The notes under the pieces: model-generated
What the model saw: the letters and a program-made list of their open reading frames with translations, nothing else
What the model was told of the DNA's origin: nothing
Databases searched by the model: none
Assembly (NCBI RefSeq): GCF_921293095.1
Contig: NC_060251.1
Location: 60,653,585-60,717,584, forward strand
Reading direction: 5' to 3'
Source of the DNA: Ischnura elegans
Lineage: Eukaryota; Arthropoda; Insecta; Odonata; Coenagrionidae
DNA: 64,000 nucleotides
Position numbers and translations under genes: made by a program
Shown here: positions 9,760 through 63,885 of the stretch, piece by piece
How the letters are laid out: every line of letters starts with the position of its first letter
Numbering within the stretch: the first letter of the stretch is position 1

Positions 9760-10800
9760 TGATATTAAGTTGAAGATCTGAAGTGATGCGAAACGCATTG
9801 AAGCGGGTCCTAAAGCAAAATTTAATTAATTGTTCGAAATTTTCAAGTAACTTTTAATTGAGTAATACGCTAGTGTTCCACCAGATTATGCCAGAAACAA
9901 ATCTCTATAACCGTAAGTACGGACAAAAAAAGAAAAGAACATTTTGCATAAGAAATAAAAAGTATATTAAGTATATTAATGAAAATATGATTGAATATTC
10001 ATGAAATAAGACTCTGCAAATATTCTTGGCTTGGAAGAATTCCTTGTATGATAGAAAACTGTCATTTTTTGCAAGCGCGCGAGTTTTTGAGTATTTCTAT
10101 TGGCAGTTTGAAACCTAGCTAACACTTTTTTTCCGTAATACTATTCTGAATTTTCAACGCACTAAGAGAGAAAATTTTATGAGCATATTAACATGGAGCT
10201 ATTTGCTCCAATGGTTAACGTATTTACATGTATGAAAATTTTTCTCCCATACGAAAGATACGAAATTCGTTCGCGCAATTCTTGAAATTTTCTCATTGCT
10301 CACCGATTATTAGCAAACTTCAAGTGATTCACTGTATACTTCTCACCCAGTTAACGTGAAAAATATATTAATCACAGCTTCAACGCGTAATAATTATATC
10401 ATGAGTTATTAATTTCCAAGAGATATAGTAGTTCAAAGAGGACCGAATTCAACGGACTACATTTTTTTGAACAACATCCAGTCACATTTAGAGACAAAAA
10501 TAGAAAATTCCCCATGCAATAAATAATAGACTTAAGAAATAAAGAAAGAATCGGTCATATAGTTTAGGTATTATACGAAATATATCGCATGCTTATTTCG
10601 TGCGCCACAGAAAAATTAATCTCGGGAATCCCCGCAAAATAGCTCAAAGGCTAATGCGCGTGCCAGCTCCATTGTTGCCGTCGCTAAGCGCCAATTCCGA
10701 GAAAATTCCTGGTCCCGCACAACATTACTCCAGATTCAATCCTCTCAAAATTTATTCCGTAACCAAAGAAAAAAAGCTGTTCTGCGCCGATGGGGCTTGA
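9760..10800. other. Presumed 5' flank and 5' UTR of gene A
   Basis: AT-rich and non-coding. No clear TATA box or initiator could be fixed. GC content rises from about 10590 towards the ATG at 10801, which suggests the 5' UTR begins near there. Confidence 0.3.
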
Positions 10801-11709
10801 ATGAGTAACAAAGACCAAGGGGGCTCCGAACGGAAGGACACCTACGTGCAGACTGACATCGCGGGTGCCGTTAACTTACCGCCATCAATGGAAGGGGAAG
10901 ATTCGAACGGAACTCCGGTTAGCGGAGGGGTTGGGGAAACTGAGGGCAATAACGAGACCGATTTTACCGGGGACGAAACACTGCCAGACGTCAGCGAAGA
11001 GGAATTTCGAGAGGGGAACTTTATGGAGTCAACAAGGCGTCCTGATGAAGAAGCACCTATTGACGAGAGTGAAGAAGTATTCCGTGAGGGCGGTCAGATG
11101 GATTCGGAAAGAATACCATCCAGGGATTCACAAGCCGAAGAACCTATTGACAAGAGCGAGGATGCACAAGGTACCGATGAAATAGGCACTCCACCTATCG
11201 ACCAAAGCGAGGAAGAATTCCGTCAGGGCATCCAGATGGAGTCGACAAGGATCTCATCCAGGGATGCACATTCCACCAACGCGATAGATGCTCCACCTGT
11301 TGACCAAAGCGAGGACGAATCCCATCGGGGTGCCCAGATGGAGTCAGCAAGGACCCATTCTAGCAAAGGTCCTTTGCCTAGAACTCAAGCATCCGTCCCC
11401 TGGGACAGTGCTGATGACTCTTCCTCGTGTTCTGGAGCTTCTGCAGAAAATAGGAGTGCCCTCAACGCCATCAATTGGAGTGCTTCAATAGGTCCCTTGT
11501 CCAGGATTCAAGAATGCATCCCCTCCCACAGTGCTGAAGGCCCACCTTCACATGTTGGAGTTTCTGCAAATATTTGTTACTCCTTCAATCCCAACGAATG
11601 GACTTGGTCAGAAGGACCCTTGCCCAGAGGATCAGGATCAGGTGCTGAAGGCACATCATGTGACAGAACATACACAATCCCTAGGGAATGCCCTCAACCA
11701 GCTCACATG
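10801..11709 (+). CDS. Gene A exon 1 (residues 1-303)
   Basis: This is the initiating exon, starting at the ATG directly after an in-frame TGA and ending at donor ATG|GTTAGTAAAG, phase 0. Residues about 60-175 repeat an acidic module of the form D-x-S-E-(E/D)-x-F-R-x-G-x-x-M-(E/D)-S four to five times. Two looser 45-residue units follow, each with GPL(P/S)R, then S(A/P) and an Asn-rich end. The open frame runs on past the donor to 11913, but that extension is intron sequence plus a hAT miniature element starting at 11751, so I exclude it. The motif YVQTD lies at residues 15-19. Confidence 0.68.
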
Positions 11710-14700
11710 GTTAGTAAAGATTTCTGTGCTTACTCTGAGTCATTCTGTATCAGTGGTGCCGACTCCATGGGGCTTGAGGGGGCCCGAGCCCCCTCAAACA
11801 TTTGTTATGGGTGTGAGGAAAAAATGTGTCAGGCTTGTCGATTTTCCCTAGAGTGTCCAGATATCGACATTCTAGTTATAAGGGTTATAATGTTGATCAT
11901 ACGACGCTTCTAAAATGCTTAAAAAACTTAAAACTCACTACTTATAAAATTTCCCGGGGAAAGATCCCTGGTTTGGGCCCCCCTATATTTTTTATAAGTC
12001 GGCGTCCCTGTTCTGTATGCTACTTTTCATTAAATTATTGGTCTAATACTCTCAATTACAACTCAATCCTCAAAATATTGTCAATGGGAGGGGGCCACAT
12101 CTAACTTTAATCATTGTATATACTTATGTATTTCAAAATTCAATCACCACCAAAGGTACAACTCTGCATTGACCACCAACTTAAGTATCTATCGCCATTA
12201 AATTATTTCATTGGATTGAGAGTTCAGTAAATTTGAAAGAGTTAGAAATTTACACAACTCTATAATTCCAATCTAGAATTGATCCTGCTTAATTAATAAA
12301 AATTTTATGAATTGAATACAACTTTTTTGTCAGAGAAGAATTCAGAAAACTCAACCAAAAAAGATTTATAGTTGTTACTACTGAACAGTCTCAGCTTATA
12401 CAGGATAAAATAATTTAGGCTATGGCACATCTTCCTTATCCATTTTATCATTCATTACTCATCAATCCTCATCCTGATTCATTCCCTAGCATCTTTATTC
12501 CCCTAAGTATGCCCTGATATGAGTTGAACAGTTTGCAAACAATGCCAGTAGATTTGTGGGACTGAATAGCTTCCTTATTAAAATTAGAACAATATATTAT
12601 GTACCTACCTTTTCAAATCCCACAGGCAATTTAGTATATTAGCATATACTCCCCCTGAAATTCGTTCCTGGATCCACTTCTGCACAGTGATGGTCAGTGG
12701 CGCCGACTCCATGGGGCCTGAGGGGGCCCGAGCCCCCTCAAAGATTCTTTTGGGGGGGCGGAGCCCCCTCAATAATTCAAGAAAATAATTATGTTATATT
12801 ATGCTTTGTGAAATCACAAAAATATATTGGTAATTTTTATTTCCCATGTTTGACGATAATTACCTTTTAAAATAAATTCAACAATGTATTAAAACAAATA
12901 ATTATAAGGTTAAGCAGGTTAACTGAATCAGGTGGTGTGAATCATGATAGTGTTTCGGTGCTGCGACACACTTTCAATTTAACCTCTTCCCGGGGCAAGA
13001 CCTCGGATATGGGCCCCCCAATATTTTTTATAAGTCGGCGCCCCTGGTGATGGTAAGGGTAATCAAATATGTCTCTTCATAAACTAACACAGGGTTTTCA
13101 TCCCCTTATATCCCTTTTTCTTTGGAAATAAAAATAAATTTTTATTCATCAAGACTTCCTTTCCCAATGGAGCACACATGCTTAAGGAAAAATCTCCAAA
13201 TACAAGAATGAATGTATGATGTTTGGTAGCATAAAACAGCATAGGAGAAGATACCTTATGCTTAAGTTATTAAGAGAACAGTAAAAAGGACATTATCTGT
13301 GGTACAAAAATATTAACCTCCTAAAGAGAAACAACCGCAACTCAATACAACAAAATTACAAAAAAGAATGCATATTTAGTACGAATAGTTAAGGCAATAT
13401 CACTATGGTACAGCATCAGCGTGTTGGTTTCAATGATTTTCTTCTCCATCATCACAGGAGTCATGCCATTCTGAAGGTCCTCAGGGTGTTGAGGTGGCAC
13501 TTACAGGTCAGCAAAACCCTCACTACGTCTCTGTGGATCACTGCTCAAGGTAAAAGAAACAAAAATAGCTGTATTTGAAATTATTCAAAGTATTTTAAAG
13601 GTATTTAGGGACTTTTGTTTTTCTTAAATGTTATTAAGCACTTATTATACCATGGCTTTATTTCTTCTTCCTCCTTTTTTTGGATTCCATCCTCCTTTCA
13701 ATTTTTGTTTTCTGATGATTAGATTTAAAAAAAATATGTATTGCCTTCTTTCTCTATTGAAAATATTGAAGGCCAGCTATCATTCTAGTAAATGATAAGA
13801 AAACTATGTACTTATCCACCAATTTATTCTTGCGGTACAGCTAGTTTTGACACTGTGACGTCATCATCAGGTACTAAGGCTACAAACATAAAATACGTCC
13901 TTATATATTATGAAAAGGATGTGATTTCAGTTGGGGAGGAAGAAGGTAGTTGGAAGGGGTGGCTGGGAAAATCTCAACGAGGTGATTGGCATTGTGAGCG
14001 GTTGGTGAGAGTTGGAGAGGGGTGGGGTGTAGAAGAGCATTGGCTGGGAGTTACGGAGGATTATCAGTGACTAAGGTAATGACGGGTGTGTCCGTAGTAG
14101 TAGGGGGAGGGGAAGGATTATGGGTTGCTTGTTTTTCCGTGTCACAAAGGCTTTTAAGAGAGGGGAAAGGTTTTTAAATACAATGTCATTAAGCAGGGGA
14201 CGTTTCTTCATTAGTTTTCTAATCACCAACTCCTCTTTTTTGTCCATTCTTCCACCTTTTCCTTCCTGGTGTAGAATCCTTGGGATGAAATAACTGCTGT
14301 GGTTCTCTTCCCACAAGTGTTTTGCAAAGTGGGACTGGGAGAGGTTGCAAGTCCAGAAACTCCTTTTGTGCTCCTCTGCTCTCAGCCGGAAAAAGCGGCC
14401 TGTTTGTCCAACATAAGCAGCAGAGCACTCGTTACACTCTAATAAATAAATACCTGTGTTGTCCAATTGGTCACTTCTCTCTTTTGTGTCACTAAATATT
14501 CTTTTCAGGTTGTTGTTGTTATAAAAGGCATTCTTGAAAAGGTTTTTGGCAAACAGGTTGCTAACTTTCTGTGACAAAAAACCATAGTAAGGTAATCTAC
14601 ACCACACAAATTTATCAACCTTTGATTCCATTGGACTTAATAATATATCTTGTGCTCTTAGGGAGCGTTTGTTTATGAGCATTTTATCCACAAGTGTTCT

Positions 14701-17700
14701 GTTACACCCATTCACTGTTGCTATTGCTTTAATCGGATCCCCACAATTCCTTACCACCGCCACGGATTTTTGAATTTGCTATTTTTAGAAAAACCACCAC
14801 CAGGGATCATGTTATCCCCTCCGACTTCCGCCATCACATCTCTCAAAAGTTATCAACCATGAATGATCCACCATGAATGAAGAAATCTTGCAAGTCCCAC
14901 TAAAACCTTTATTCACTAGATGACATATTTTGGCAGCACAGGGATTTGTCACTTTCCCTGACTCGTACCAAACCCAATCCATTTTTTGGTACATATCATA
15001 GAAAAATTAACAAGAAGTTCTTTTCTTGAAACCATTTCAAGAGGACTCCAGCCCATTCCTCTCCTCAACCAATTCCACTTTCCCCTTGCCACTCCCTCTA
15101 CATCCAGAGAACAAAATACATCAGGAGGAAGATTCTAGGACCTCATCAACAGACCCAAGGACTATGCCATAAGGAAGGTCTTGACAACACCTTGAGCTCA
15201 TCCTTTCTCCTACCCTTACGTTAGGGTCCCCTGCAAATACCATTGCTCTAAACAAATGAAAGAAAAGAGCTTTGAACACACCCTTGAAAGTGATGTGAAA
15301 GCATAGAAATAAATGAGTCATGTAATAAATAGTATTTCAGTAGAAATTACAAGATCTCTTTCATTTATGATTTTACATACAATGTTTAACACTTGCCCAC
15401 TTTTCACCTCACAGAGATGGCACTAACAGGCGACAACAAAGCTACACTGGCAGAATGAATTCTGTGCAAGAGAGAGAAGTGCCATGTGACTCCAACAATC
15501 AGGTAGTTTCGAGAAGAGCTAATGACTGTATGGAAACTCGAACTAGAGCCTCACCAAGTTGTGAATCCGTATATCATGATGCTGTCTCGACTCCCCCAGA
15601 TGATGCACCCCTTATGAAGACAACCATTCGATTAACCATCACGGCAAAGGCAAAAAAACCACGTAAGTACTGATCAATTAACCATCACAAATAGTGGCAG
15701 CGATAAGGGCCTCGCAGACCCCGTGAGCCTTTAATTCATTTACATTTACACAAACATAGCTTGTATAGGGCTCCCACAAAAATTTTTGCAGGGGAGGAAG
15801 GGGGGCCTTAGTGCCGCCACTGACCACAGATATTCTGCGATTAAAATGAGTAACTACTAGTGATAAATTTGCATCAAGGAGTGCTAATTTTAATTCAATG
15901 GAAACAAGTGAGATAAGCCGTAATGTATTAGGCAGTGCATGTTCTCAACCAAAATTTACAAAATAGTTTCTTAAATTTAGCACAATTATTACAAAAAATA
16001 TATATGTATTTGACTATCCTCACACTAAAAGTGGTATTCGTATAAAAAAGAAAAGATTCTTTACATTGAATAGTTAAGCTTGCAATCTTTGGGGCTCAGG
16101 AGTCTGGAATTAAATCAGGATCAATACAATGTAGAGTCATCACAATCATTACTGTTGATCCCGAATATTATATAGTGGAAGACCTTATAATGCAGTCAGA
16201 ATTTATCTTCCCTAATACCTAACTTATAAAAATTTGAGTTCTTACAGTTGATCAAATATGTTCCACAAAAACTGGATAATCATCCTCATTGTTTCTTCAA
16301 TTAAAAATATGGAAATTTGGCTAACCCCTTTCAGAGCAAGTGTCACTCCCAGCAACATTGGAAATTTTTCCCCAAATCGAGGAATCACCCTGAGGGTCTC
16401 CTCTAAAATCTTTGTAATAATAAAATAATCATACCATAGTAATGGTATTTTTTGATCAATTTCTTAAATAAATTCTGTGTTATATAGAAAGGTATATTTT
16501 CTATGCTCAATAAAAATTTCTGAAAATTATTAGAAAAATTATGTATTTCAAAACAAATTTTTCAAAAGTTTCTCTTGAAAATAGCATAGCAATCTTCCCA
16601 TGAAGTTAGGTGACTATATAGAGCACTTAAAGGTTTAAACATTGCAACAATTTGTGTGCATAATTCATGCCTATTTCCCACATTATACAATACAGCAACA
16701 TGATGTATTTTTGTTAAGGGTCAGGTTGAAAATAAAAAGTGATAAAACTATTTATTATATCTTTTATATTCCACTCACTTAAAAGCACAAAATGTGGACA
16801 CCTTAGAGTCACATGAGTACACTATCGGTAACAAAAACACATACCACTATTCAAAACCACACACGGCTACCGATAAAAGACACCACTTAACGAAATCATA
16901 TAACCAGTGTTCATATGAGACATTGCTCTATAAAATCTTACAAAACAACATATATATATTATCAATTTTCATTTCTCACCATCATTCATCAGCTTGCCCA
17001 CCAAGGAACCCTTGCCCACCTGATAGACCTCAAGAGAGACAGCAGCAAACACCTTGCGAGAGACAGCAGCAAACACCTTGTCAGAGACAGCAGCAAACAC
17101 CCTGTAAATCTGGGAGGCCAGCTCCTCCTCCAGCTGGTGATAATCCAGAGGGAAGACTGGCTAGGTGTGCAGCAGAATCTGTCCTTCGCCTCATGTCAGC
17201 TCTTGAGAGACAAGGTGCATCCGACCGATCAGCTGAGATGGTACTCTCCCCAAGGGGAATAGTAGTCTGCATAAAGCCCACAGGACCAAGGCAAGACCAG
17301 CCCAGGCCAGAATGCCAGAGGTACCAACTTGATGCAGTTTAGATTTACTAATAAAGTAAAAGCTAATAGCAATTTTCCACAAATTCAAATTATTCATACA
17401 ATTTTTTACTTAACTATTATTATATTTATTTATATTTAAAATTCATTTATGTGTTAGAATATCACCAAATAATAATAATAATATAGTTATACCAAAATAT
17501 AATGGACTATCAAAATAATAGTAATAAAAATTTATTCATTTCAAGAGGTCACTAAAAATGCACACAGGAAAAAGCTGATGTCTTCTTTAGTAACACTTTA
17601 TGAATGCAATTCATACATTGAAGTACTGCAAGCAAAATTAAAATGGGAATCTGCAATAAAATTATACAAACATTTATGCAAGACAATCAATTAGGAGGTA

Positions 17701-20700
17701 AATGATTTTGTAGAGATAGATACTCTTTCAGTGACCGTTAACTTTTTGGAAAGGATACACTTGATATGAGCAGGAAGTGTATTCATATCTTTGTTGCTAA
17801 ATACACAGGACTCATCTGACAAAACGTATTGCAAAATATTCACTCATGAATTTATATATTTGCTCCTGTTCGGTGAATATATGTTGGTACATTGAAAGAG
17901 AGATGGATAAGCACAAGGAATGGGAATTGATGATGGGAAACGTTGTGATATTTTTGTTATGAGTTCCATCTACTAAAAATTTATACTCTCTGTTAAAGGT
18001 GGGGTGCTTGGGAGGTATGCGGATTGCCTCCTTTTTCTTTTTTTTAAGTTGCTTCATAGCTCATTGAGAATATGGATTGGAGCCAAATACGCAAGCTTCA
18101 TGCTAGTTCTTTCGCAGGATCTCCCACGATATAGAATACCAGTGGGATCTTGGAGCTAAATTATTCCTCTTTTCGCCGGAAAGGTACGGAATTTTGAGTT
18201 GCAGAATCCCCTAGAATTTTGCTTTGCGGGATGCTTGGGTGGTATGCGGGTAGCCTACATTGATATTTTTGTCGTCAATTTGCACGCGTCGGAAAACCAT
18301 AAATATCTATCAAAAAGTCTAATATATATTTCGTTTGGATAGTGCTAAAATATTAATTCATCGTTCTTTATTAACAGAAATTATGAAATGTATCCATATC
18401 GAAAAATTGAGGATCGCCCTTGGGCTGTCTCCAATGCATATGGATCGTGGGTAGTAGCCACAAGGGAAAACATTATATGTATTATCCTTGAGCCCGAAAA
18501 TAGGTAATGATGTTCCCATTTACACGAAACGTTTCAAGGTAAAGAAAATTTACTTAACCACCATAAACGTCCAAAGAAAGATTTTTACCTATCTATTAAA
18601 ATTAAAATTTATGATTTTAAGATAACTTTCATGCACCTGCCGTTATCTCGAATATCATTTTAGAAATTACATACCAGTCGAAGAAATTGAATCATATGTA
18701 TCGATTTGGGGTAAGTATTAGTAAACAATACATTATGGTCCCAGACAGCACAGAATCCTCCGTATCTAATTCATATGCAGATAGTATCCATTGACTACCG
18801 CTCCGTCGCGTTTCGTCAATGGATACTATCTGCATACAAATTAGATACGGAGGATTCTGTGCTGTCTGGGGTTGGATACCAAGTCTGCGATCTAAGGGAT
18901 AACACAAAAATGTTGGATGACAAGGTTAGTTCCACCTTGCTTTGATCGTGTCTTTAACTCTCACATTTCTTTGAGGATGTTCCGCGGCATGAAAGTTTTG
19001 TGGGATAGCGATGTTCTTACCACAGCCGAAGATCACGAGGAGAAGATCGATTTCTCAGAGATTCTGAAATGTAGGATCTTGAATTCGGCGCGTATTGGAC
19101 GCAATGAGTTTTATTTTTATTCACTTAGACTAACTTCGAAGGTAGGGGGGTCAATGCTCAAAGTCTTCAGTAAATTATGAATTTCTATCTTATCATGATC
19201 ACGTCGAAAGTCAATCCGCAGTTGATTTTTTTCTCGCTATAAATCTAACATTGTAAGAATTCTTTGACGTTAACGTAGACAGCGATTATTCATTTCAGTT
19301 GCTCATCGTCACTTGGAAAAGCATTGATGATTTGTGCGTATTTGGTCATTCTGCTCAGATAATAGATCAAGTTAATTTGTTACGGCCGTTTTACACAGGG
19401 CATGTAATTCCACAATCTGACGTCTGTACGACGGCGCAGTCAAAATTGTGTCGTGTATAATGCAATGAATTGCTAGAAGGTATTCGAGAATGCATGGAAA
19501 TGAGATGGCAAAATAGCCCCTGTTCTAATTCCGTTCGTACATTCTTGCATTTGCATGCCATTATGAGAAATGAATGTTATTCTAACCTGCGCAATTACGT
19601 GCCCCTTGTAAAACGGCTTTTACGTTGACCATGTTTCCATCCTGATTAATCCCGTTTTCTTATCGAAAATGGAAAAAAAACTCATTGATTGAATTGCTTC
19701 TCACTCTTCACATTTTAGACCCATGCACGAGATAGGTATGTAAGTATGGACAGTGTAAAAGCGGAGAAGGTAAATGGGAGATGGACTTATAGATAATTAT
19801 TTTGCTCCTATGTTCTTGACGTTGATTAAGACCAGTGGCATATCCAGGATAGGGACAAGGGGCAGCTAATTGGGAGGTAACCTCACAGCATTAGTGGGGG
19901 TTCAAACAACATTATCGGTCTATCTAGTGTAAAGTGGATGCCCAAAGGGGAGCAAAAGCCCCTTTTAGCCCCTTTCTGGATTGTAACATACCGAAAGGGT
20001 GTAAAATAGGCCCTAAGCTTATTTGTTTTTCAATTTGTTAAAATAGGTAAATATATGTAGGAAAATAGGACGAGATACTTTTGTACAAAGTGGCAACCTT
20101 CAAAAATTTTGATTTTAACTAGGGTGTGATTCAATCCAATGGGGGGCTATGTTATATAGCCCCCTTAAATACGCCACTGACTGGGATCATTTTGTTGATT
20201 ACATATCTCTGATGATTTCAGCTTAGAACAGTTCATAGACATAACATGGATGACTTCACTGATATGCTCTCCACCTTAATTGAAAACTTTAAAAACCAGA
20301 TGCTTGTCAAATTTTTAATCGCAGTTGGATTAGGGAATATTAGGAACTTTGATATGTTTGTCACCTGAGCTATAGTTAAAGAACCCTAGGGTAATGCTAA
20401 AAACTTAAATAAATGTCTTTGTACACTCAACTAATGGTTGAATTTTCAAAAACTCCTCAGGGGACCTGGACAAAATGCTGCTACACCTGATGACCGTGCG
20501 ACCAAACGATGCTGTAACAAAAATCAGCCGAGTCAGGGTATAACCTCAAATAATCCTGACTGCCCACCCCCATCTAATGATGGTCAGAAACTCAGACCAT
20601 GCTGTAAGGACTATCTTGCCAAATCTGGAAAAGGCTCCAGTCCCTGTGGGGATTCTGGACGACCTTCTCCATGTGCTGACAGACGAGAGACAGAAGTATG

Positions 20701-23700
20701 TGGAAAGGAATCTAGACCCTCTTCTCCATGTGCTGACAAAAGGAAAAAGGGAGTTTGTGGAAAGGAATCTGGATCCTCATCCCCATGTTCCGACAGAGGA
20801 AGATCAGGATCATTTCACAGGGAATCGAGACCATCTTCTCCAAACCCTTGTAAAAGAAAAACAGGATCATGTTCCAATGGAGATCATGATGGAGAGTGCC
20901 CTCGTTCGTGGCAATCTAGGGTACCATCTCCAGTAGATGATGACGACGATTGTTTAAGACGCTTCTGCGAAGAATTTCTTGCACGACAGCGCAGGGAATC
21001 GAGACCTTCTTCTCCAAACCCTGGTAAAAGAAAAACAGGATCATGTTCCAATGGAGATCATAATAGAGAGCGCCCTCGTTCACGGCAATCTAGGGTACCA
21101 TCTCCAGTAGATGATGACGATGATTGTTTAAGACGCTTCTGTGAAGAATTTCTTGCAAGACAGCGCAGGGAATCGAGACCTTCTCCAAACCCTGGTAAAA
21201 GAAAAACAGGATCATGTTCCAATGGAGATCATAATAGAGAGCGCCCTCGTTCACGGCAATCTAGGGTACCATCTCCAGTAGATGATGACGACGATTGTTT
21301 AAGACGGTTCTGTGAAGAATTTCTTGCAAGACAGCGCAGGGGTCGTGAACCCTCCACATGTAGTGAACATGATCAAAGCTCAAATTCATCCTGTGACGAA
21401 GATCCTCCACCAAGGAGAGGGCCATGTTCAAAAGGTGTTGGAATCCAGACAGAAGAAATAGAAGGCATTCCTCAGGATCCCTGTGAAGATGAAATATGCC
21501 CTCCTGACCTGTCATTGTGCACTTGTGAAGATGATTTTGAGCGAGATCAATTATGTGATGATGAACAAATTTCCCATTCATTTGTAACAGCTTCAGATCC
21601 AGACATAGAACCGTGTCCAAGGCCACAAGATGACTTCATGAATCCATTTCCTTGCCCATATTATCCGGCCTGTATAGAAGCTGCACGCCAGGGTTGGCCG
21701 GGGCCTAATTTTGGCCCACCCAACAATCAACCGCCTAACAACCAACCCCCCAATAACGGTCGACCATTTGGACCACCCAATGACCGCAGAGATTTTACCT
21801 ATGGAGAACCACCAGATTCAGGCTATGCAAGCTCTGGAGGAGACTTAAATTCACCATATTTCAGGAATTGTGTTCCTCAGCCACAAAATTTTCAACAACC
21901 AGGCACATACAACAGAATGCCCACAAGGTCTGGTAACATGCAGCCGATGGGTGGAGAAGGGATGGTGACATTTTCTAATGACAATCCACCATCTCATTAC
22001 CGTAATGACCAAGTATTTTATGATGGTGGCTTCCAGCAAACTTCCTGTGGTGTAAATGGGGGCTGGCAACAAAATCAAGCACATAGAAATTGCTGTTCCA
22101 GACAAAATTCTCCGAATCCGCACTTTTCATCAGATCCTAGACCAAACGAAAGAAATTTCTTTACAGGTGAAGGAAATTTCAACCAGAATAGTCATCACCA
22201 CAATTGCCAACCAAATTCCGGATCAAATTTCTCAGAAGTTGGAAGATATTATGACGTACATCAACCTCAGAGAAGACCCATGGAACCTGACAGCTCATCT
22301 CCAGACTTAAGAGGATGTCTGAATGAGATGAATTTCAATTTAGGAGAGGACCCCTGTGAAATAGCAACTTCATGTCGTCATGGTGATGGTGAGGGTTTAA
22401 GTCTGCAAAAAAAAGATTCGCTCTCACCTTTGACAGAAGAGATATCGAGACTAGGACAGATAGTGGATAGAATCGTAGATGTGGCTGGACCACTAACTGA
22501 CTATTTCATGAGGTGTTTCAATGAGGTTCCAGCACTGACAGCTCCACAGAATACCTCAGATACTCCATCTTTGCAAGAAATGAATGAAGGTTCTAGAAGG
22601 ACTAGCCAGATTGACTTCGAATGCAACCAAGGTAAACCGGGTAATGATGCTATTACGTCTAGGGCTTTCCAGGAGAAGCCCCAGACCTGCTCAGCTCAGA
22701 ACAGAGAGCCTCCAATCAGAAACCAAAGAGAAGCTTCTGACAGAAGATTGAAATCAAATTGCATATCTGGTCAGAAGGACAGCATCAATGAAGGACTAGA
22801 TGACATGAATTTTTGTGTACAGTTTTTGGAGAAGTTGAAAAATCAAACTAGCGATGTAAATGCCATGTTTGACCAAGATGGTTGGGAGACAGGAAGTCAA
22901 ATGATATTATGTGACTTCCCTGAAGATGCATGTCAAGGAAATGATGAGGGGTTTGCAAAATACCAAGGATATTCCAGTTTTTCTCAACAAAGGAATGGAG
23001 AACAGAATGACAGATGTTCAAGCCACAAACATGCATCAAATCAGAACTACGACATAAACAGAGGCAATTGTCAAGGTGCTGCTTCACCATGTAACTTCGA
23101 AAATGATTATCATTCAAGGTAAGTTGTAGAAGCTTGTCTTTCTCATCTATATAAGTTTATGTACATTGTTAGATAAAAATTAATAGGTACTGATGAGCTG
23201 TAATTAACAAATGATAAGAAATGAGAAAGGGGATCTTCAACTCCAGCCATTTAAATGTGTTAGATATGCTTGGTACACATTGAATTGGTCAACTGGTCAG
23301 GCTAGGATCTCAGCATATCATATAAATTGCAAAATATGAGCTCATCAATATAGTTTTCAAGAAGAGATCCATTTAGATGACAGGAAACCCTCTTCATAGC
23401 ATCAAAATATAGCTTTATTCCATGCTAAGGTGACAAATTTAAGTGATTTCAATGATGATGATTCCTTTAGTCTCTCTCTACAGCAGCTGTGCACATTTCA
23501 TACATGAAATTGATGAGCAGCACTTCAAAAAGGTTCCTTGTTCATCAAAAATCACTACAATAGACCCCCCTACAGCTTAACGATGGGTTCAACTTTAAAT
23601 GGATTTCACTCACGATCTGGGATGATTTTAAAAATTATCAAATTTTGACTAGTTTGACAATGTATTTATGGGTAATAATATTTTTAGTAATCATAATCCA

Positions 23701-24152
23701 TAGTATATTTCATATGCATTACCTGTATCACGTACATTCAATGGATTGGAGCTGATGCTATTAACACCAACTCCACATCGGTAAACAATACAATACCAAG
23801 TATGACTGCATTCACTTTATGATCAGTTATCCTGAATAGATTGATACGATAAAGTGATATGGATACGCTACTACTGACGGGGCTTTGAGGATAAACCATG
23901 GCATATTATAGCCAATCCTTAGGTTAAGTTTTACTATTCCATATAGATGCACACTTTCCATTGATACAATTTTAATGTTAGCAATTCTTTTTCATTAATT
24001 CATTCTTCAGTGGTGCAAGAGGTCTGACCAGCAGGGCTTCAGAAAATTACAGCTCAACCTCTAACTCCAATTTCAATACCGACAAAAACAAGAATCTTCC
24101 TGCAATATGTCAAAAGCATAGGGACCAAATCAACAGAAGACAGACAATTTGA
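10801..24152 (+). CDS. Gene A: repeat-built Cys/Pro/Ser/Asp-rich protein, six exons, 1458 aa
   Basis: I do not recognise a family. The six exons are 10801-11709, 13458-13549, 15415-15662, 16993-17320, 20461-23118 and 24011-24152. Every intron is GT..AG and every junction keeps the reading frame (phases 0, 2, 1, 2, 2). The coding length is 4377 nt, exactly 1459 codons with the TGA. The ATG at 10801 follows an in-frame TGA directly, so translation cannot start further 5' in that frame of the same exon, although its Kozak context is weak. No signal peptide or membrane segment is visible. The protein is hydrophilic and low in complexity: acidic Ser/Glu repeats in residues 1-180, Pro/Cys/Gln repeats near 418-450, Cys/Ser/Arg/Asp repeats near 590-818, and an Asn/Gln/Pro/Gly-rich part near 930-1130. 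Two QT motifs (Q17-T18 in YVQTD; Q855-T856 in GIQTE) resemble dynein light chain LC8 ligands. Introns hold an antisense Penelope element and hAT miniature elements. A structural or scaffold role is inference only; tissue is unknown. Confidence 0.72.
11751..12010 (+). mobile_element. hAT miniature element, family CAGTGGCGCCGACT, copy 2 (gene A intron 1)
   Basis: It has a perfect 8-bp target duplication TTCTGTAT (11743-11750 and 12011-12018). It sits 41 bp after the exon 1 donor of gene A, and its first 160 bp happen to continue the exon 1 open frame. Confidence 0.82.
12695..13046 (+). mobile_element. hAT miniature element, family CAGTGGCGCCGACT, copy 3 (gene A intron 1)
   Basis: The ends are CAGTGGCGCCGACTCC and AAGTCGGCGCCCCTG. 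It has a perfect 8-bp TSD GTGATGGT (12687-12694 and 13047-13054). This is the longest copy, with a different AT-rich centre, which shows that internal deletion derivatives exist. Confidence 0.82.
13458..13549 (+). CDS. Gene A exon 2 (residues 304-334)
   Basis: This 92-nt internal exon has acceptor TCATCACAG|GAG behind a pyrimidine-rich tract and donor CTCAAG|GTAAAAG. Read in phase 0 from exon 1 it is open throughout (starting ESCHSEGPQGVEV) and ends in phase 2. Its last AG joins the first A of exon 3 to make an Arg codon. It is too short to stand alone; support comes from the phase match on both sides. Confidence 0.6.
13795..14763 (-). mobile_element. Penelope-like retroelement, 3' part with GIY-YIG endonuclease
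   Basis: The minus-strand ORF at 14763-14071 (230 aa) contains GIYLLECNEC at residues 104-113 and AYVGQTGRFFRLRAEEHKRS at about 116-135, followed by SHFAKHLWEENHS. This is the GIY-YIG endonuclease core that follows reverse transcriptase in Penelope-like elements. The region before it (VDKFVWCRLPYYGFLSQKV) fits the RT-EN linker. The RT itself is missing (5' truncation). The 3' UTR ends with CCTGATGATGACGTCACAGT and AAGAATAAATTGG, of the kind seen at Penelope 3' ends. It is inserted antisense in intron 2 of gene A. Confidence 0.75.
15415..15662 (+). CDS. Gene A exon 3 (residues 334-417)
   Basis: The acceptor is TTTTCACCTCACAG|A and the donor CCAC|GTAAGT is near consensus. The exon enters in phase 2 and leaves in phase 1. 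The frame reads DGTNRRQQSY at the start and ends with a basic stretch, TITAKAKKP, before the split Pro codon. An internal ATG at 15455 gives a shorter open frame, but the exon is open upstream of it to the acceptor. Confidence 0.64.
16993..17320 (+). CDS. Gene A exon 4 (residues 417-526), Cys-Pro and ERQQQTPC repeats
   Basis: The acceptor is CATTCATCAG|CT and the donor CCAGAG|GTACCA. It joins exon 3 by completing a Pro codon (C|CT) and exon 5 by an Arg codon (AG|G). It opens with CPPRNPCPPD, followed by three copies of the octapeptide (E/Q)RQQQTPC encoded by a 24-nt tandem repeat at about 17034-17105. The second half (ESVLRLMSALERQG, then EMVLSPRGIVVCIKP) looks like a short helix followed by a strand. 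The open frame continues into the intron to a TAG at 17340. Confidence 0.62.
18740..18870. repeat. Hairpin: 56-bp arms, 19-nt loop, 54/56 matched
   Basis: Left arm 18740-18795 (starting CCCAGACAGCACAGAATCC) and right arm 18815-18870 (ending GGATTCTGTGCTGTCTGGG) are complementary at 54 of 56 positions. The loop is TACCGCTCCGTCGCGTTTC. It lies in gene A intron 4. It could form a long hairpin RNA if transcribed, or be a foldback element. Confidence 0.9.
19833..20179 (+). mobile_element. hAT-like miniature element (CAGTGGCATATCC), gene A intron 4
   Basis: The ends are CAGTGGCATATCCAGG and AATACGCCACTG. The interior (for example AGATACTTTTGTACAAAGTG) is shared with 24898-25205. No clear target duplication was found. 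It lies in the intron before the long repeat exon. Confidence 0.62.
20461..23118 (+). CDS. Gene A exon 5 (residues 526-1412), main repeat exon
   Basis: This unusually long 2658-nt internal exon lies between acceptor AACTCCTCAG|G and donor ATTCAAG|GTAAGT. It is open over its whole length in the frame given by exon 4. It has short Cys/Pro modules (SSPCADKRKKGVCGKES), then three tandem 58-58-57-residue units at 20819-20992, 20993-21166 and 21167-21337, each ending VPSPVDDDDDCLRRFCEEF. These are followed by GIQTE at residues 853-857, an acidic Cys-rich stretch, (P/N)QPPNN repeats, a long Asn/Gln/His/Gly-rich region, and a more structured C-terminal part (ISRLGQIVDRIVDVAGPL near 1185; FCVQFLEKLKN near 1310). 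The open frame starts without an ATG, which fits an internal exon. Confidence 0.8.
24011..24152 (+). CDS. Gene A exon 6 (terminal, residues 1412-1458)
   Basis: The acceptor CATTCTTCAG|T is read in phase 2 from exon 5 (AG|T gives Ser). The frame is open for 46 residues (GARGLTSRASENYSS at the start, QINRRQTI at the end) to a TGA at 24150-24152. Two AATAAA signals lie about 90 nt downstream. The Ser/Asn-rich composition matches the end of exon 5. Confidence 0.66.
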
Positions 24153-24260
24153 CCCAAGAATTCCAACCTCATAATATTTCCACCGACACATGAATGCAGG
24201 AGAAGACTCATCCATAGAAGCTATCAATAGATACAGTGAATAAAAATAAATGTCATTGAT
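24153..24260 (+). promoter_or_regulatory. Gene A 3' UTR with polyadenylation signals
   Basis: AATAAA occurs at 24239-24244 and again at 24245-24250, about 90 nt after the gene A stop codon. The cleavage site was not determined. The block from the last codons through these signals is present again at 24757-24873. Confidence 0.55.
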
Positions 24261-24756: not shown

Positions 24757-24873
24757 CAGACAATTTGACCCAAGAATGCCAACCTCATAATATTATAACC
24801 AACACATGAATGCAGGAGAAGACTCATCAATAGAAGCTATCAATAGATACAGTGAATAAAAATAAATGTCATA
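24757..24873 (+). repeat. Second copy of gene A 3' end (stop, 3' UTR, polyA signals)
   Basis: This 117-bp block repeats 24141-24256 in the same orientation with only a few substitutions, including CAGACAATTTGACCC and the double AATAAA. There is no poly(A) tail, so a simple processed copy is not indicated. Its left flank contains a piece resembling the start of the hAT-like element that begins at 24898, so it may have moved with that element. It could also be an alternative polyadenylation region. Confidence 0.7.
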
Positions 24874-40400: not shown

Positions 40401-41021
40401 TTAGGTATCCGTGACACCTTCAATACTCCAATCCCAGGAGTATTGGACTAAATCAAGAGGAGTAGATGAGCCTACCTTGCCACTGTCAGTCGTACTCGTT
40501 ATTGGCTTCCTGGAGGAGTCTGTCCGATGCACTGCACTGCTCGTAACGGATGACATACTTTCATTGGACTTGCTGGTTGCCCTGGCGACAGGTGATGGAG
40601 GGGCTTTTGGTGTTTTCGACTTGGTGGGCGGAAGTGGAATGCGACTGAGCCTCCCGGCACGGCTCTGCGACCGTAGCTGAGTCTGTAGCGGGGGCGTCCT
40701 CGAAGACGGAGGAGTTCTGGATGAGGGGGGCGTTCTGGATGCGGGAGGTGTCCTTAATGAAGGATTGGATGTCCTGAGAGCCGAGACTGGCCCAGCATTC
40801 CGACCACCCCTTGATCCATTGTTTTCATGAGAGGACGCCACATAGTGTGCTGACTCGGTACTGCTCCCATTGATGTCTTCCTTTGGAGTCATGGGAGAAT
40901 TGAATGTGTGAGATGATTGCTTCCCATTGGGCACCAAAGCATCGCCATTTTGCGTCATGGTGCTCTCCAGCAACCGAATCCTGGCTCGTGTCCCCTCCAG
41001 TTCTATACTCTTCTCCTCCAG
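40401..41021 (-). CDS. Gene B 3' exon with SRIP (SxIP) and SRTPP repeats
   Basis: The acceptor is TTACTTTCCAG|CTGGAG. The exon starts with coiled coil (LEEKSIELEGTRARIRLLES), then a Ser/Thr/Asn-rich stretch, then (A/S)SRTPP-type repeats at about 40680-40740, then a basic Pro/Ser-rich segment with RLSRIPLPPTKSKTPK (codons near 40634-40650). A good donor, GGCAAG|GTAGGC, would end coding at 40476. If unused, the frame stays open for 24 more residues (ending WSIEGVTDT) to a TAA at 40401-40403. I cannot decide between these, so the end shown is the longer one. Confidence 0.68.
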   Translation of the reverse strand: MEEKSIELEGTRARIRLLESTMTQNGDALVPNGKQSSHTFNSPMTPKEDINGSSTESAHYVASSHENNGSRGGRNAGPVSALRTSNPSLRTPPASRTPPSSRTPPSSRTPPLQTQLRSQSRAGRLSRIPLPPTKSKTPKAPPSPVARATSKSNESMSSVTSSAVHRTDSSRKPITSTTDSGKVGSSTPLDLVQYSWDWSIEGVTDT

Positions 41022-44000
41022 CTGGAAAGTAAAGAGCAACATTGCTGGATTACATCACAGATATTCTGGAAACCAAAGGAAATAATGAATAAAATCGGAA
41101 AATGAATGGAAAACAAAGTCACCAAAAATTAAGGTAAAATGAGGGATGAGAGCTGATGATATTTTTGGAGGCGATTCAATACTGTTATCACTCTGGCTGG
41201 AGTAGCACACCCAACAGAGTACAAGATAGGTAATCTCCTAATAAATTTAAATCCCCCTGTTACTATTTCTATTTTTGATTTCATAAATAAATCTTGTCTC
41301 ACATTGCTCATCACAGTAATTCAGCAAGAATTCCTCTATCCCCCACTGAGAACACAGGCAAGCATAACAAGTCTTCAATGAAAATTGATCCGATACCATT
41401 CACAAAACAAAAGAGATTTATGAATCAAAGAGAATGAAATTTGGGCACGAGTACATGGTATTACTCGTAATGCGGAAAGAATGAATTATCATGGATTTTT
41501 AGAGTATTTGAAAATAAATAACAGTTAATTGAAAATACATACAATAAAGAGACAGTTTCTGTGAGAAAATCTAACAGTGTGTATGAAAATAACCATTATT
41601 TTTTACTCCAACAATACAACAATTTCTATTTCTTCGAAAAAATACTGAAAGATGTACCTGGAATCGGAGATCCTCATTTTCCTCTTTGGTCTTCTCAAGG
41701 TCAGTACTTGTCTCACCTCTCCATGCCGTCATCCACTCAAGTTTTTGACGCAGTGTCTAGAAGGAATTAAAAAAAAATGGTTTACCGCCAGAAAACAAAC
41801 ATTCATGAATTCACTGTAAATATATCAGATCAATCAAAGATTAGAATTGAATTGAATGCAATTAAGGTGACTGAGAAGGCTTAATCCTGGCAAGTCTGCA
41901 TTCATTTAGAAATTTTCAAACTGAACTTAACTGGAGTACATTCATAAAACTGCTTTTGAAAATTTATAAAACCTTTGCATCCATTAAATAAAATCAAAAT
42001 TTTGCCTTTACATTAAGGCAGGGATATTTTCAACAAATAGGGGAAAACCTACCCTAACATAGAATTTTAAATATTTTTGTACATAAATAAAATAACACAC
42101 CAGTAATAATAAGGCAACGCAGATCTTCACAAAGAGACATTGAATAAAGTGCCTTGGTTATTCTATTTCTGAGAATTCAAGATGTATTTGAACATAATGA
42201 GCATATACTTTCAGTCTAGCTATATGTACTTTTAGATTTAAAAGAGCAGTTGTGAGACTTATAGCATTAGTAGTTCAACTTGAAGCATAAGCACAAGATG
42301 AGTTGAGTATAGGTTACTCACAGATACAACAAAAGTTAAAATGTCATGAAATGGTTATCATGCTCAAAGCATACCATCCACTTTTGGTTTTTGTTGCTAA
42401 TGACAAAACCCAGTCAATTTTGACTTAAAACTGGTTCAATCAGGTCAAATCTAGTAAATAATAATCCAATTGCTTCCAACTGGAAACAACTGGAATTCTC
42501 CCATGGGTAGCACCAAAGTCATAATTGACCTTGAAGACTTGAAAGGACATTCAAATTTCCAAACTCACCTCCCTCTCCATAGCTGTTACCAGCAAATGCC
42601 TCCTCAGTTCCAAAACGTTCTCCTCCTTCAAGATAGCTGCAACCACTCTGGGGTCAGCACGCTTCACACCCCTTGAAGAAGCCATCACCTCTGCCGGATT
42701 GCTCACCACCCCATCCAGATCACCAAGGTTTGAAAGTGGCCACTCCCAAGCCTCCTTACGCACTCCCACCCGGAATGATGAGGACCTGGACACCCTACCA
42801 CTAACATCAGGGCATGGTGACTCCCTTACAGGGCTCCCTAAGGGACTACCGGGTAAACCTTGGACATCCTCGGATGAAGAAACCCCCAGGAGTGGACTAC
42901 CCCCTACCGGTGATGCTGCAGCAGCAGTGGCTGCTGCCGTCATCGATGCTCTTCTCCGTAACCCACCCCCAACAGTCAGTGGGGATGAAACCCTGCCTGG
43001 AGACCCCCTACCGCTCCCTGCAGAGCTCCCCCTTCGGCCAGGCACCCTCACAAACCGTGCGTGAAGTCCATGGATCCTCGAGTTTAGCTCAGACTTCTGG
43101 GACAGGGCAGCCCGCAGCCGCTCCTCGAGCTCCGACCTCTGGGCCACCAGCATCATGGCCTCTTCCTGGAGACGGGCGACGCGAGCCTCCGATCCTACCG
43201 CGTCCGCCTCCATCTCAGCTACCCTCCTGAGCAATAGGTCCTTCTCCCTCCGGAGCCTCCGCACCTCCCCAGCAGTTTCCTCCTCATCATCATCGTCATC
43301 TGCCCCACCCCTGCTCCCAACAGGGTCCCTCCCACTCCCATCCCGCCTCCTTCGCCCACTGACCACTGCCTCTTCCTCCTCATCTTCCTGGTGACTCTCC
43401 AAGCGGACCTGCATTGAAGCGTAACAACCATCATCAAAACATAAAGTCAAATTTAAAAAAATTAGTAAAATTGGAAATTGCAATATTTCCAATGGGTTTT
43501 ATTTTGACACTTCGTTTTGTTGTTACAAAAAGCATTATCAAGAGTTAATTTTGTTTGTAACTATGAAACATGTAGCGTCAATATAAAATTCAGTGGAAAT
43601 ATTGCAATGTCAAATTTTACTAATATTAAGAATTTCCATCAAATCCTGCCTCACATCATACAAGAAAAAAAAAAGTTGTTAAGGAGGACAAGATTGGGCT
43701 AAAGGAAATTTGTGAGACCGCATCCCAGGGGGATGTTTTGAGGGGCATGAGGAGGGGCTTCCTTTGGAGTCTGACCCATCCCCTTTCTGACCAAACCAAA
43801 GGAGAAACCTCAGCAGAGGAGACCCAAAAAATATAGGAGGCCACCCATATGCCTCTGAACCCACCCCTCTGGAATGTGGCTTCACTGATTCCCAATAGAA
43901 CAATTTTTATTTACATCACACTCGGGTTGTGTAGTCAAGCCCAGAAGATATCACTGCACTTACAGCAGTGGAGTGCTTGAAGCAGCATTTGAGAGAGCAT

Positions 44001-47000
44001 GCTTGGAAAATTGATATAGCACATTTGATATTTCTGATACAATGAATGCAGAGAATAGAAACCATGGTTACTAAGAGTCAGAGGGCATTAACAAGGATTT
44101 AATTCTTTCGTCAGTTTCAACAATAGTAGAAAAAATATTTAGGAGCCAAGTAATGAGACATAGAAGACAATTCTTTGTATCAAGCTCTTCCAATTCCCTC
44201 ATATAGATCCAAAGTGCATTAGCAATTTGGAATTACTACTGCAGTACCATAGTTTTGATGGGCATCATTAATTCTTTGGGATGCAGGCTTGGAATTAATA
44301 CTTAATAATTTGATGAAAACAACAAGAAGAAGGTAAATAACCACTATCAACAGCACGTCCCTTCAAACTAGTTATTGTTGGTGAGTTCAAGGAACACTCT
44401 AAGTGCCAATGTCACTCACAGCAATGGAAATTTTTCCTTCAAGTCTTAATTGATGAACTCATTTCAAAAATCTTTGTTACAGTAAAATAATTTGAGCACA
44501 ATAATGTATTTTGCATAACTTCTTAAATAAAGGTGTTTCACAAAGGAAAACATCTATACCCTGTAAACATTTTCAGCAATTTTTAGGAACATAATGGTTT
44601 TATAGACATTCTTCATTAGTTTGGCATTTCTCAGTTAAGTGAACCAGCAATTTCCACATGACATGAGGCATTTCTACATGGAACTCAAATTTTCAGCAAA
44701 TTATATTTAAATAAGGAATATAAATGGTTCTTTAGACATTTTTCATTACGTTTTCATTTCTCAGTTAAGTAGCCTGAGGATTACTGCATGGAATTAGGCA
44801 ATTCTGCATGTCACTCAAAGGTGAAATTGGTGAGAAAAGGTCACCAACCTGCAGCTCTTCCACCTCCCTCCTCAGCTTGGTTCCCTTCCTCTGGATCACC
44901 TCCAGGAGCTCCCACAACTCGTCCTCGCTGGACATGCCCGCCTGCTGCCGGTGGTGGTGGTGGTGCTCCTGATGGCTCTCACCCGCCTCACTGGCCGGCG
45001 ATGACGTGGTCGCTCCCCCTGAGGACTTGGGGCCGGTCACCGTCCCGGAGCTGTGCAGATCCTTCGTCTCCGTGCTGAACCCGGAGTCCTGGACCGTGCT
45101 CCCGGAGGCCGTCCCACCACTGCTGGCCTCGCCCCCGCTGCCCCCTCCCCCGCTTCCGCCCCCACTCCCGCCGCCTCCGCTCTTCCTCTGGACGGTCTTC
45201 TTGGCCGCCTCCGGTTCCTTGAGTTTCCTGCGGACCCTTACGCCCGGGCCCCAGTCGCGCCATCCCGTGCCCGCGGCGACCGCTGCGGGCGGGGAGGCGG
45301 AGGAGACGACGGCCGAAGGGCTGGACGAGGCGGAGGACGGCGACGAGGAGAGGGGACGGGGACGGAGCTTGATCCTGGCGGCGGTAGGGGTGGTGGTGCC
45401 CGCGGGAGAGGACCCCTGGCCTCCCCGCATCGAGGGCTGCTCCGAGGCAGCCATCTTGCTCCGGAGGTGCGGGAACGTCTCCATGACGACATCCCGGAAC
45501 TCGAGTAAGGCACCCACTTCATTTTGGAGTTCCTGGTTGAAATTAAAAAGAATAGGATTGGATGGTAAATCGAAAGTATTCAAAAAGTATAGTAGAGGTC
45601 ATGATTCGAGTTATAAGTGTTCATACGGCAATACTCTATGCAGGGATGAGCAACCCGCGGCCTGCATGCGAACATTTTTTTCCGGACCCTCCGTGAACAT
45701 TTTTTCCGGACCGCGGGATTTTATTTTTTTTCATACCACCGAAAACAGCACATATTGGCCGTTTACATTGGGGTTTATTTAACATTTTAACAACTAGACG
45801 GGCATGAACAGCCTTGCCCTGGATAAGGACAACCTACCCAGGTGGGACTCGAACCGCGACCTATAATAGGCCTGTTAAGAATAATTGTTACCATGCGAGG
45901 ACTTTACCCCGCCGCCACCAAGGCCGGCAATTTATCACACTTAAACAAAACAATTTTATTTTTATAGTGGGTAAAGTAGTGAGAACTAATACATTAAAAT
46001 TTCTAATATTTTCTACACATACATGCAAGGTTAATAGTTAATACAATAATAATAATAATTCGTTTTGTTTCCATTGTCCACTCCAAAAATAACTGCTGTG
46101 GGTCTAAATCCAATCCGGGGGAAATATATTTTTATATGGAGCCCGCGGAGTTATGATGCATTCCCAACGTGGCCCCCAATATCATTGTTTTACCCGCGCA
46201 TTTTGCCAAACCAAAATTAAGGCGGCAGCAAGTGGAGGGTAAAAGGTTCGAACGTAATGCTGGGAAGAAGCTGTCTTAGGGGCACAAGGAGGTTAGAATA
46301 TCTGGAGGCGCTAGGCAGCGCTTCTTCCGGGTTTCCTTGCGCGTTTATCCATTTTGCTGGACAATACTTCGCCAACGTTCCAGTTGGTTTCTCAGTTCCA
46401 GAAATGAAGAGTTTTTTCCACTTGATATACACCCTGTTTGGCGCCTATTTTGTGGAGGCGTGCCCTGATTGGTCGGGATCTTTGAAGACCCGTTTCCACG
46501 CGCTGGCGAGAGTGTAGCCGTCTTCACGGTTGAAGTTCTTGGGTGTTTTGGTGAATTCAACTGCCTCCCTGATGACCCTTGGATACTAGCGACCTTCTTT
46601 ATTCAATAGAGGCGTTATCGAAGTTAATGTTGTGGGTCGGTCCAGGGGCGCAACTAGCAATTAAGACTAGGGGGGGTTTTAGGCACAACTAATAATGGGG
46701 AGTTAGGGGCTATGGAATACCCGCCAGGGGAAGCTGGAGGTGCGGGGCCCTCCCCCAGAAATTTTTTAAGATAAATGGTTCAAAATGGTGAGTTTTACGG
46801 CCTTCTGAGGGATATTTTTATAATCCTTAAATTATTCTATAAGTAATATTAATCTAATTAAGTGAAATGGATTAAACTTAAAAATTTCTCTGAGCTCTTG
46901 GGGGGGGGGGGGGGATTATCCCCCAAAACCCCACCCTCGCTGCGCAACTGGGTCGGTCCACTCCATTGGTGTTCCGCCACCGCTGACTGGCTGAATTGTC

Positions 47001-63368: not shown

Positions 63369-63885
63369 ATGAAACAAGTGACTTTGAACGCAACCACGCG
63401 CACGGGTGCTAAGTCATGCACCGAGGATGAGGGTTCGCCATAAAAAATATTTGGCTTAGCCGGGATACGAACCCGTTTCTCCCGATTGCCGATCAGGCGT
63501 ATTAGCCAGTTACTCTACCAAGCCATCTTCTCAAGACAAACTTTTACAAACGATGGGTTTTACCTAACCAGGCGTTGACGTCACAAGTCAACACTGTGGC
63601 ATTTGAATCGTAGGTCGTGCTTACTAAGCCACTGCCGGAGAAATTAAACCTTCTTTTTAACCGACAACGACGAATTTCAAAGCACTGCATGAAACAAATG
63701 ACTTTGAACGCAGTCACGCGCACGGATGCAATGTCATATACACCAAGGATAAAGTTCGCCATGAAAAAATAGGATGGCTTGGTGGTGAAACTGGCAAACA
63801 CGCCTACCAGTAATCGGGAGATCCGGGCTCGAATCGCGGCAAACCCCAATATTTTTTCATGGCAAACTTCATCGTTAGTATATAT
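63369..63885. repeat. Paired tRNA-like units with duplicated body
   Basis: A minus-strand tRNA-like unit (63451-63522; acceptor arms GGCTTGG and CTAAGCC, B box GGGTTCGTATCCC) and a plus-strand unit (63776-63844; GGCTTGGTGGTGAAACTGG, B box GGGCTCGAATCGC) lie 250 bp apart. The 90 bp to the left of each (TGCATGAAACAA, ACTTTGAACGCA, CACGCGCACGG) is directly repeated (63369-63455 and 63687-63775). The anticodon loops are abnormal, so I do not call functional tRNA genes. Confidence 0.58.

Follow-up and report, generated by a model that had tools for sequence, protein, structure and literature searches.

A candidate six-exon gene of the damselfly Ischnura elegans for a repeat-built, mostly disordered protein with two LC8-type motifs

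Do the open stretches found along a segment of damselfly chromosome 6 belong to one gene and, if so, what kind of protein would that gene encode? The window under study, that is the whole stretch of DNA analysed, comprises 64,000 nucleotides of the + strand of chromosome 6 of Ischnura elegans (C6:60653585-60717584). A first-pass annotation, which gave the outer coordinates, had proposed here six phase-matched exons encoding 1458 residues, and we recovered a coordinate set giving exactly those numbers (Table 1). Specifically, the six-exon join, running from 10801 to 24152, is 4377 nt long and corresponds to 1458 amino acids followed by a TGA stop. All five introns of the model show GT-AG borders, an in-frame TGA (10798-10800) lies immediately 5' of the exon 1 ATG, and AATAAA motifs are present 3' of exon 6, starting from about 24240. 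An NCBI annotation of the I. elegans assembly exists (PMC10681423), so that the gene may already figure in it.

Table 1. Positions, within the window, of the exons of the six-exon model and of the repeats, motifs and elements discussed in the text.
Feature	Position	Strand	Description
Exon 1	10801..11709	+	909 nt; acidic modules; donor ACATG/gttagtaa; ends in phase 0
Exon 2	13458..13549	+	92 nt; phase 0 in, 2 out
Exon 3	15415..15662	+	248 nt; phase 2 in, 1 out
Exon 4	16993..17320	+	328 nt; 24-nt unit ERQQQTPC x3; predicted helix 17145-17210, predicted hairpin 17232-17273
Exon 5	20461..23118	+	2658 nt; within 895-codon open frame; donor TCAAG/gtaagttg
Exon 6	24011..24152	+	142 nt; TGA at end
LC8-type anchor VQTD	10846..10857	+	RKDTYVQTDIA; residues 16-19
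Acidic repeat modules, exon 1	10975..11372	+	e.g. PIDQSEEEFRQGIQMESTR
Nested tandem array, exon 5	20650..21336	+	57-nt units x3, then 174-nt units x3
LC8-type anchor IQTE	21443..21454	+	SKGVGIQTEEI; residues 854-857
Local copy of gene 3' end (24141-24256)	24757..24872	+	95%; 616 bases downstream
Short element copy 1, intron 1	11751..12010		inverted ends CAGTGGTGCCGACT / CAGGGACGCCGACT; 8-bp target duplication TTCTGTAT
Short element copy 2, intron 1	12695..13046		8-bp target duplication GTGATGGT
Antisense open frame, intron 2	14071..14778	-	235 codons; weak GIY-YIG match, E 0.01, below cut-off
Dispersed repeat, intron 4	18046..18474		stretches 18046-18207 and 18213-18474

The exon chain and its chance expectation

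The agreement of the exon phases had initially been regarded as unlikely to arise by chance. This proved to be overstated: the introns contain 26 spurious open stretches of 80-400 nt bounded by AG and GT (each frame being counted separately) whose sites score at least as well as the worst site of the model, and with so many candidate sites to choose from, phase agreement alone is weak evidence. The weight of the argument is carried by the long open frames of exon 5 (895 codons) and exon 1 (370 codons), for which the probability of encountering no stop is about 5e-27 and about 1e-9, respectively. The same probability is 0.13 for exon 2, 0.004 for exon 3, 0.0006 for exon 4 and 0.04 for exon 6. 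The splice sites were scored with matrices. On this scale the donor at 23118 is excellent, as 0.0% of GTs reach its score, and both the donor at 17320 and the acceptor at 20461 are poor, with 14.3% of GTs and 21.0% of AGs, respectively, scoring equally high.

Because phases alone are weak evidence, we searched the stretch between exons 1 and 5 for the best phase-consistent chain, scoring both sites and codons and using as controls 20 random 10-kb loci, each on both strands. The chain reached a score of 92.8, compared to a control maximum of 35.0 over the 40 strands, and of 72.2, compared to 14.0, when a penalty of 5 per exon was applied; in these comparisons the real stretch is somewhat favoured, since exons 1 and 5 served to train the coding model and the same 20 control loci supplied the frequencies for noncoding sequence. 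Most of the score derives from exon 4 (codon score 57.9 bits).

The best chain is not identical to the model in its middle part, and this bears on the possibility that the locus holds two genes, or several isoforms, in place of one six-exon chain, with the middle exons partly wrong. Under the exon penalty, the search selected for exon 3 an alternative donor after 15527, which keeps the phase unchanged, and added a 66-nt exon (18118-18183) falling within repeat sequence; when the penalty was omitted, exon 4 was also split in two. In addition, exons 2, 3 and 6 are weak individually. On the other hand, exons 2 and 4 were recovered under the penalty with both their modelled boundaries, and bridging exons are needed in any case, since the phase 0 left by exon 1 does not fit the phase 2 that exon 5 requires. 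We regard two genes or several isoforms as quite unlikely. In conclusion, four or all five of the junctions of the six-exon model are probably right, the uncertain points being where exon 3 ends and which donor exon 4 uses.

Copy number and mobile elements

The genome searched amounts to 1,722,721,009 bases in 110 contigs. In DNA searches, exons 1, 2, 3 and 4, each with short flanks, gave themselves as the single match, and so did the 174-nt array of exon 5 (20818-21341). For exon 5 these 524 bases were assayed as DNA and the whole exon through a search with the protein. As the genome search passes over very common words, a single match does not by itself prove rarity. The whole-protein search returned eight matches, seven of which map to the gene region and one to chromosome 7 (L012:8238-8363). 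The latter was considered as a paralogue and rejected, having proved to be a broken fragment of 21410-21534, with 107 of 126 columns identical (85%) and one 1-nt gap. This fragment retains the residues GIQT, but the acidic residue that comes next is replaced by a Gly.

When exon 6 and its 3' flank were used as a DNA query, one local copy was found besides the query itself. This copy holds only the last 12 coding bases of exon 6 and stops shortly past the AATAAA; it is perhaps a truncated retrocopy, although no A-tail was seen at 24757-24872. Since the exons tested lack multi-copy matches, the gene is not, by these searches, a multi-copy transposon; the many genome copies by which a transposable-element open reading frame would be recognised were not found. 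As far as searched, the sequence data are consistent with a single-copy gene.

Several transposable-element remnants do occur in the introns. Both copies of the short element in intron 1 show short inverted ends and an 8-bp target duplication, the defining features of the hAT type; the open frame of exon 1 extends into the first of them. The antisense frame of intron 2 is perhaps the remnant of a Penelope-like element. Elsewhere in the window, an open frame at 46858-47361 (-) resembles, by eye, another GIY-YIG-type end and matched no Pfam family, and a long inverted repeat, with 56-nt arms that are 96% complementary and spaced by 19 nt, is found at 18740-18870.

A further exon at 18378-18503, which would be the seventh, fits in phase and has fair splice sites, but was rejected on evaluation, as 97 of its 126 nt lie inside the dispersed repeat of intron 4; its codon score is negative. 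Among the seven non-self copies of this repeat that were fetched, six match 18213-18474 at 70-75% and all six extend into the candidate exon, some copies carrying indels that would shift its frame. The seventh copy (L041) aligns with 18046-18207 instead. The candidate resembles the exon 4 hairpin to a degree equalled or exceeded in 300 of 3000 shuffles, which is not significant. The protein search had shown this segment as unique, which indicates that such a search misses old repeats and that DNA searches are the better test. The six-exon model without this segment is the better one, and its use as an exon is possible.

The remnants in the introns are the observation that would fit the absence of any gene, the open frames being due to chance or derived from transposons. 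Against it stand the 895- and 370-codon frames, the lack of multi-copy matches for the exons tested and the synonymous bias between repeats described below, and we consider it very improbable. We conclude that the damselfly sequence is very probably a coding gene.

As to the surroundings of the gene, several large coding-looking frames, coiled-coil-like and Ser/Gly-rich, are present at 40401-45598 (-) and probably represent a neighbouring gene; the Pfam matches of the three frames scanned were all under the cut-off. A tRNA-like match at 63452-63524 (-), with 32.8 bits versus an Rfam cut-off of 29, is perhaps a tRNA-derived SINE. A scan of the window for the X-box (RFX) gave 43 matches versus 46.7 expected, which corresponds to chance level.

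Repeats, composition and predicted disorder of the protein

The protein had been described as combining three unrelated tandem repeat sets. Three sets are indeed present, and the one in exon 5 turned out to be a nested array of 57- and 174-nt units, in which the three 57-nt units preceding the 174-nt units had previously gone unnoticed. Each 174-nt unit opens with a unit of the 57-nt type, so that one nested array of six is formed. In the protein, this array reads as three 19-residue units followed by units of 58, 58 and 57 residues, the third 174-nt unit being shorter by 3 nt, in frame, and each 174-nt unit closes with a predicted helix, DDDDDCLRRFCEEFLARQRR. The acidic modules of exon 1 comprise three copies of 79 nt and five copies of a 26-nt core, and the 24-nt unit of exon 4 is present in three copies.

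The 174-nt copies 1 and 2 differ by five synonymous and five nonsynonymous changes (pS 0.127, pN 0.037), and copies 2 and 3 by two synonymous and no nonsynonymous changes; pooling the two comparisons, with sites rounded, gave a Fisher p of 0.006. In exon 1, one module pair gave a p of 0.03 and the other two pairs also showed pS > pN in the coding frame, as did four of the six wrong-frame controls. Among the 57-nt units, pN exceeded pS in one of three pairs. The synonymous bias between repeat copies may therefore be taken as moderate evidence of selection, resting on the 174-nt copies. The recent in-frame growth of the repeats lends indirect support to the earlier description of the protein as fast-evolving.

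The 1458-residue product contains 11.2% Ser, 9.9% Pro, 8.8% Arg, 4.8% Cys (70/1458) and 13.2% Asn+Gln, in agreement with the high Cys and Asn/Gln content previously noticed. The portion encoded by exon 1 is acidic (D+E 19.8%) and has 1.7% Cys. Composition and motif counts were computed on the six-exon protein; some of the other figures derive from a seven-exon version of 1500 aa.

AlphaFold2 models were obtained from single sequences, which may look disordered in the absence of an alignment. For exon 4 the mean pLDDT was 60.8, with one helix and one hairpin. For exon 5 it was 38.3, with values below 50 in 786 of 885 residues; in this model one helix appears per 174-nt unit (10-residue pLDDT means of 77, 82 and 74), together with longer C-terminal helices of low confidence. 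All together, these predictions show a mostly disordered protein with a few short helices.

Domain searches agree with the initial failure to recognise any domain: no match above the cut-off was obtained with Pfam for exons 1, 3, 4 and 5 (best E 0.011), and no family with NCBIfam, a prokaryote-oriented library, for exons 1, 4 and 5. The sequence search of the PDB returned one match for exon 5 (best E 1.7), none for exon 1 and two for exon 4 (best E 0.49), all unusable. The fold search with the exon 4 model gave 72 matches at E <=10 and none at E 0.001; the MADS-box proteins at its head (E >=2.1, with a low-confidence model as query) were discarded as not significant. A viral_contigs scan with exon 5 yielded five pattern matches and no relatives, and nothing was found in the literature on odonate orphan genes.

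LC8-type motifs and possible functions

Ana2 is one of the clients of LC8 (dynein light chain), and two motifs of the damselfly protein, VQTD and IQTE, are candidate sites for the same partner. PMC6607443 describes the LC8 anchor as a Q at position 0 with branched or mid-sized residues on either side of it (-1 and +1) and with D, E or P favoured at +2; H-bonding residues are preferred at -4, binding becomes less likely when position -2 is bulky and hydrophobic, and many anchor-bearing peptides fail to bind LC8. Both motifs conform to this rule for TQT-like anchors as given there. Judging the flanks by eye on the same description, VQTD has a favourable Asp at -4 and an unfavourable Tyr at -2, and IQTE has a Gly at -2, which is not bulky, and a Gly at -4, which is poor. 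IQTE lies in a stretch with pLDDT <50 in the single-sequence model. The two motifs seen match the pattern [VI]QT[DE], found at least twice in 15 of 20,000 shuffles, and a looser pattern, [TVI]Q[TVI][DEP], occurred at least twice in 512 of 20,000, the LC8 motif having been picked after the sequence had been seen. In addition, the I. elegans genome contains an LC8-family (Dynein_light) gene, in two pieces on C3, and a further LC8-family match, with two stops, on C12.

On the basis of these motifs, LC8 would pair two chains in parallel through residues 16-19 and 854-857, and the repeated helices, together with the C-terminal helices, might bind partners many times over. The modules present in several copies are the acidic EEFR type, ERQQQTPC and an SP/KRK linker joined to the short helix, and the product would be a cytoplasmic or nuclear multivalent scaffold. 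As the most likely reading, though with less than even confidence, we tentatively put forward that a real six-exon gene encodes a disordered repeat protein acting as an LC8-paired multivalent scaffold; here we infer its expression, its LC8 binding and its scaffold role. The structural or scaffold protein suggested by the first-pass annotation is consistent with the disorder, the repeats and the two LC8-type motifs, the role itself being one that we infer.

Cysteine-rich proteins of insect sperm tails and outer dense fibres are of cytoplasmic type and carry many Cys in short repeats. The damselfly protein is similar in both respects, although it is larger and a regular Cys-Gly-Pro repeat was not seen in it. 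A Cys-bearing structural protein of sperm, or of another cross-linked structure, has to be weighed, outer-dense-fibre-like, in which the Cys of the short repeats would be cross-linked and the LC8-type motifs incidental. The Cys content, the abundance of Ser, Pro, Asn and Gln and the PC-containing repeats of exons 4 and 5 are all in line with it, and the Cys would be cytoplasmic, since no hydrophobic leader is apparent, by reading, at the N-terminus. However, exon 1 is low in Cys and the regular Cys-Gly-Pro pattern is missing from the sequence as seen, and we hold this alternative to be possible, if on the doubtful side.

A nuclear or chromatin protein appears rather unlikely. It would account for the KRK-type basic stretches, with KRKTGS in all three 174-nt units, for the 25 S/T-P dipeptides and the disorder, and for the acidic character of exon 1, but no DNA-binding domain reached the Pfam cut-off in the exons scanned, and the fold matches to the MADS-box do not go below E 2.1.

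To return to the LC8-paired scaffold, ASCIZ (PMC5963919), 53BP1 (PMC12187134) and, with LC8, Panoramix (PMC7861614) are disordered LC8 clients, and the damselfly protein is like them in its disorder and in anchors with D/E at +2. In contrast to this likeness, no domain or sequence in common with these clients was found, and the damselfly protein has only two candidate motifs, 838 residues apart. A narrower version of the scaffold, odonate-specific and LC8-dimerised, in which the partner helix DDDDDCLRRFCEEFLARQRR would have been multiplied by recent tandem duplication and the valence would vary between populations or species, is in our opinion unlikely.

Uncharacterised repeat-bearing orphan genes occur in insects, and the damselfly gene resembles them in that no second full copy and no domain were found and in its in-frame repeat growth. 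It is, in this respect, an unproven insect gene of an already known general kind, and if the gene model alone is right, one further uncharacterised insect gene is described here. If the LC8-paired scaffold is true as well, a large domain-less scaffold gene would be added from the Odonata, an early branch of the winged insects, and its young array, in which the last two 174-nt copies differ by two substitutions and a 3-nt deletion, would suit the study of how tandem duplication increases binding valence.
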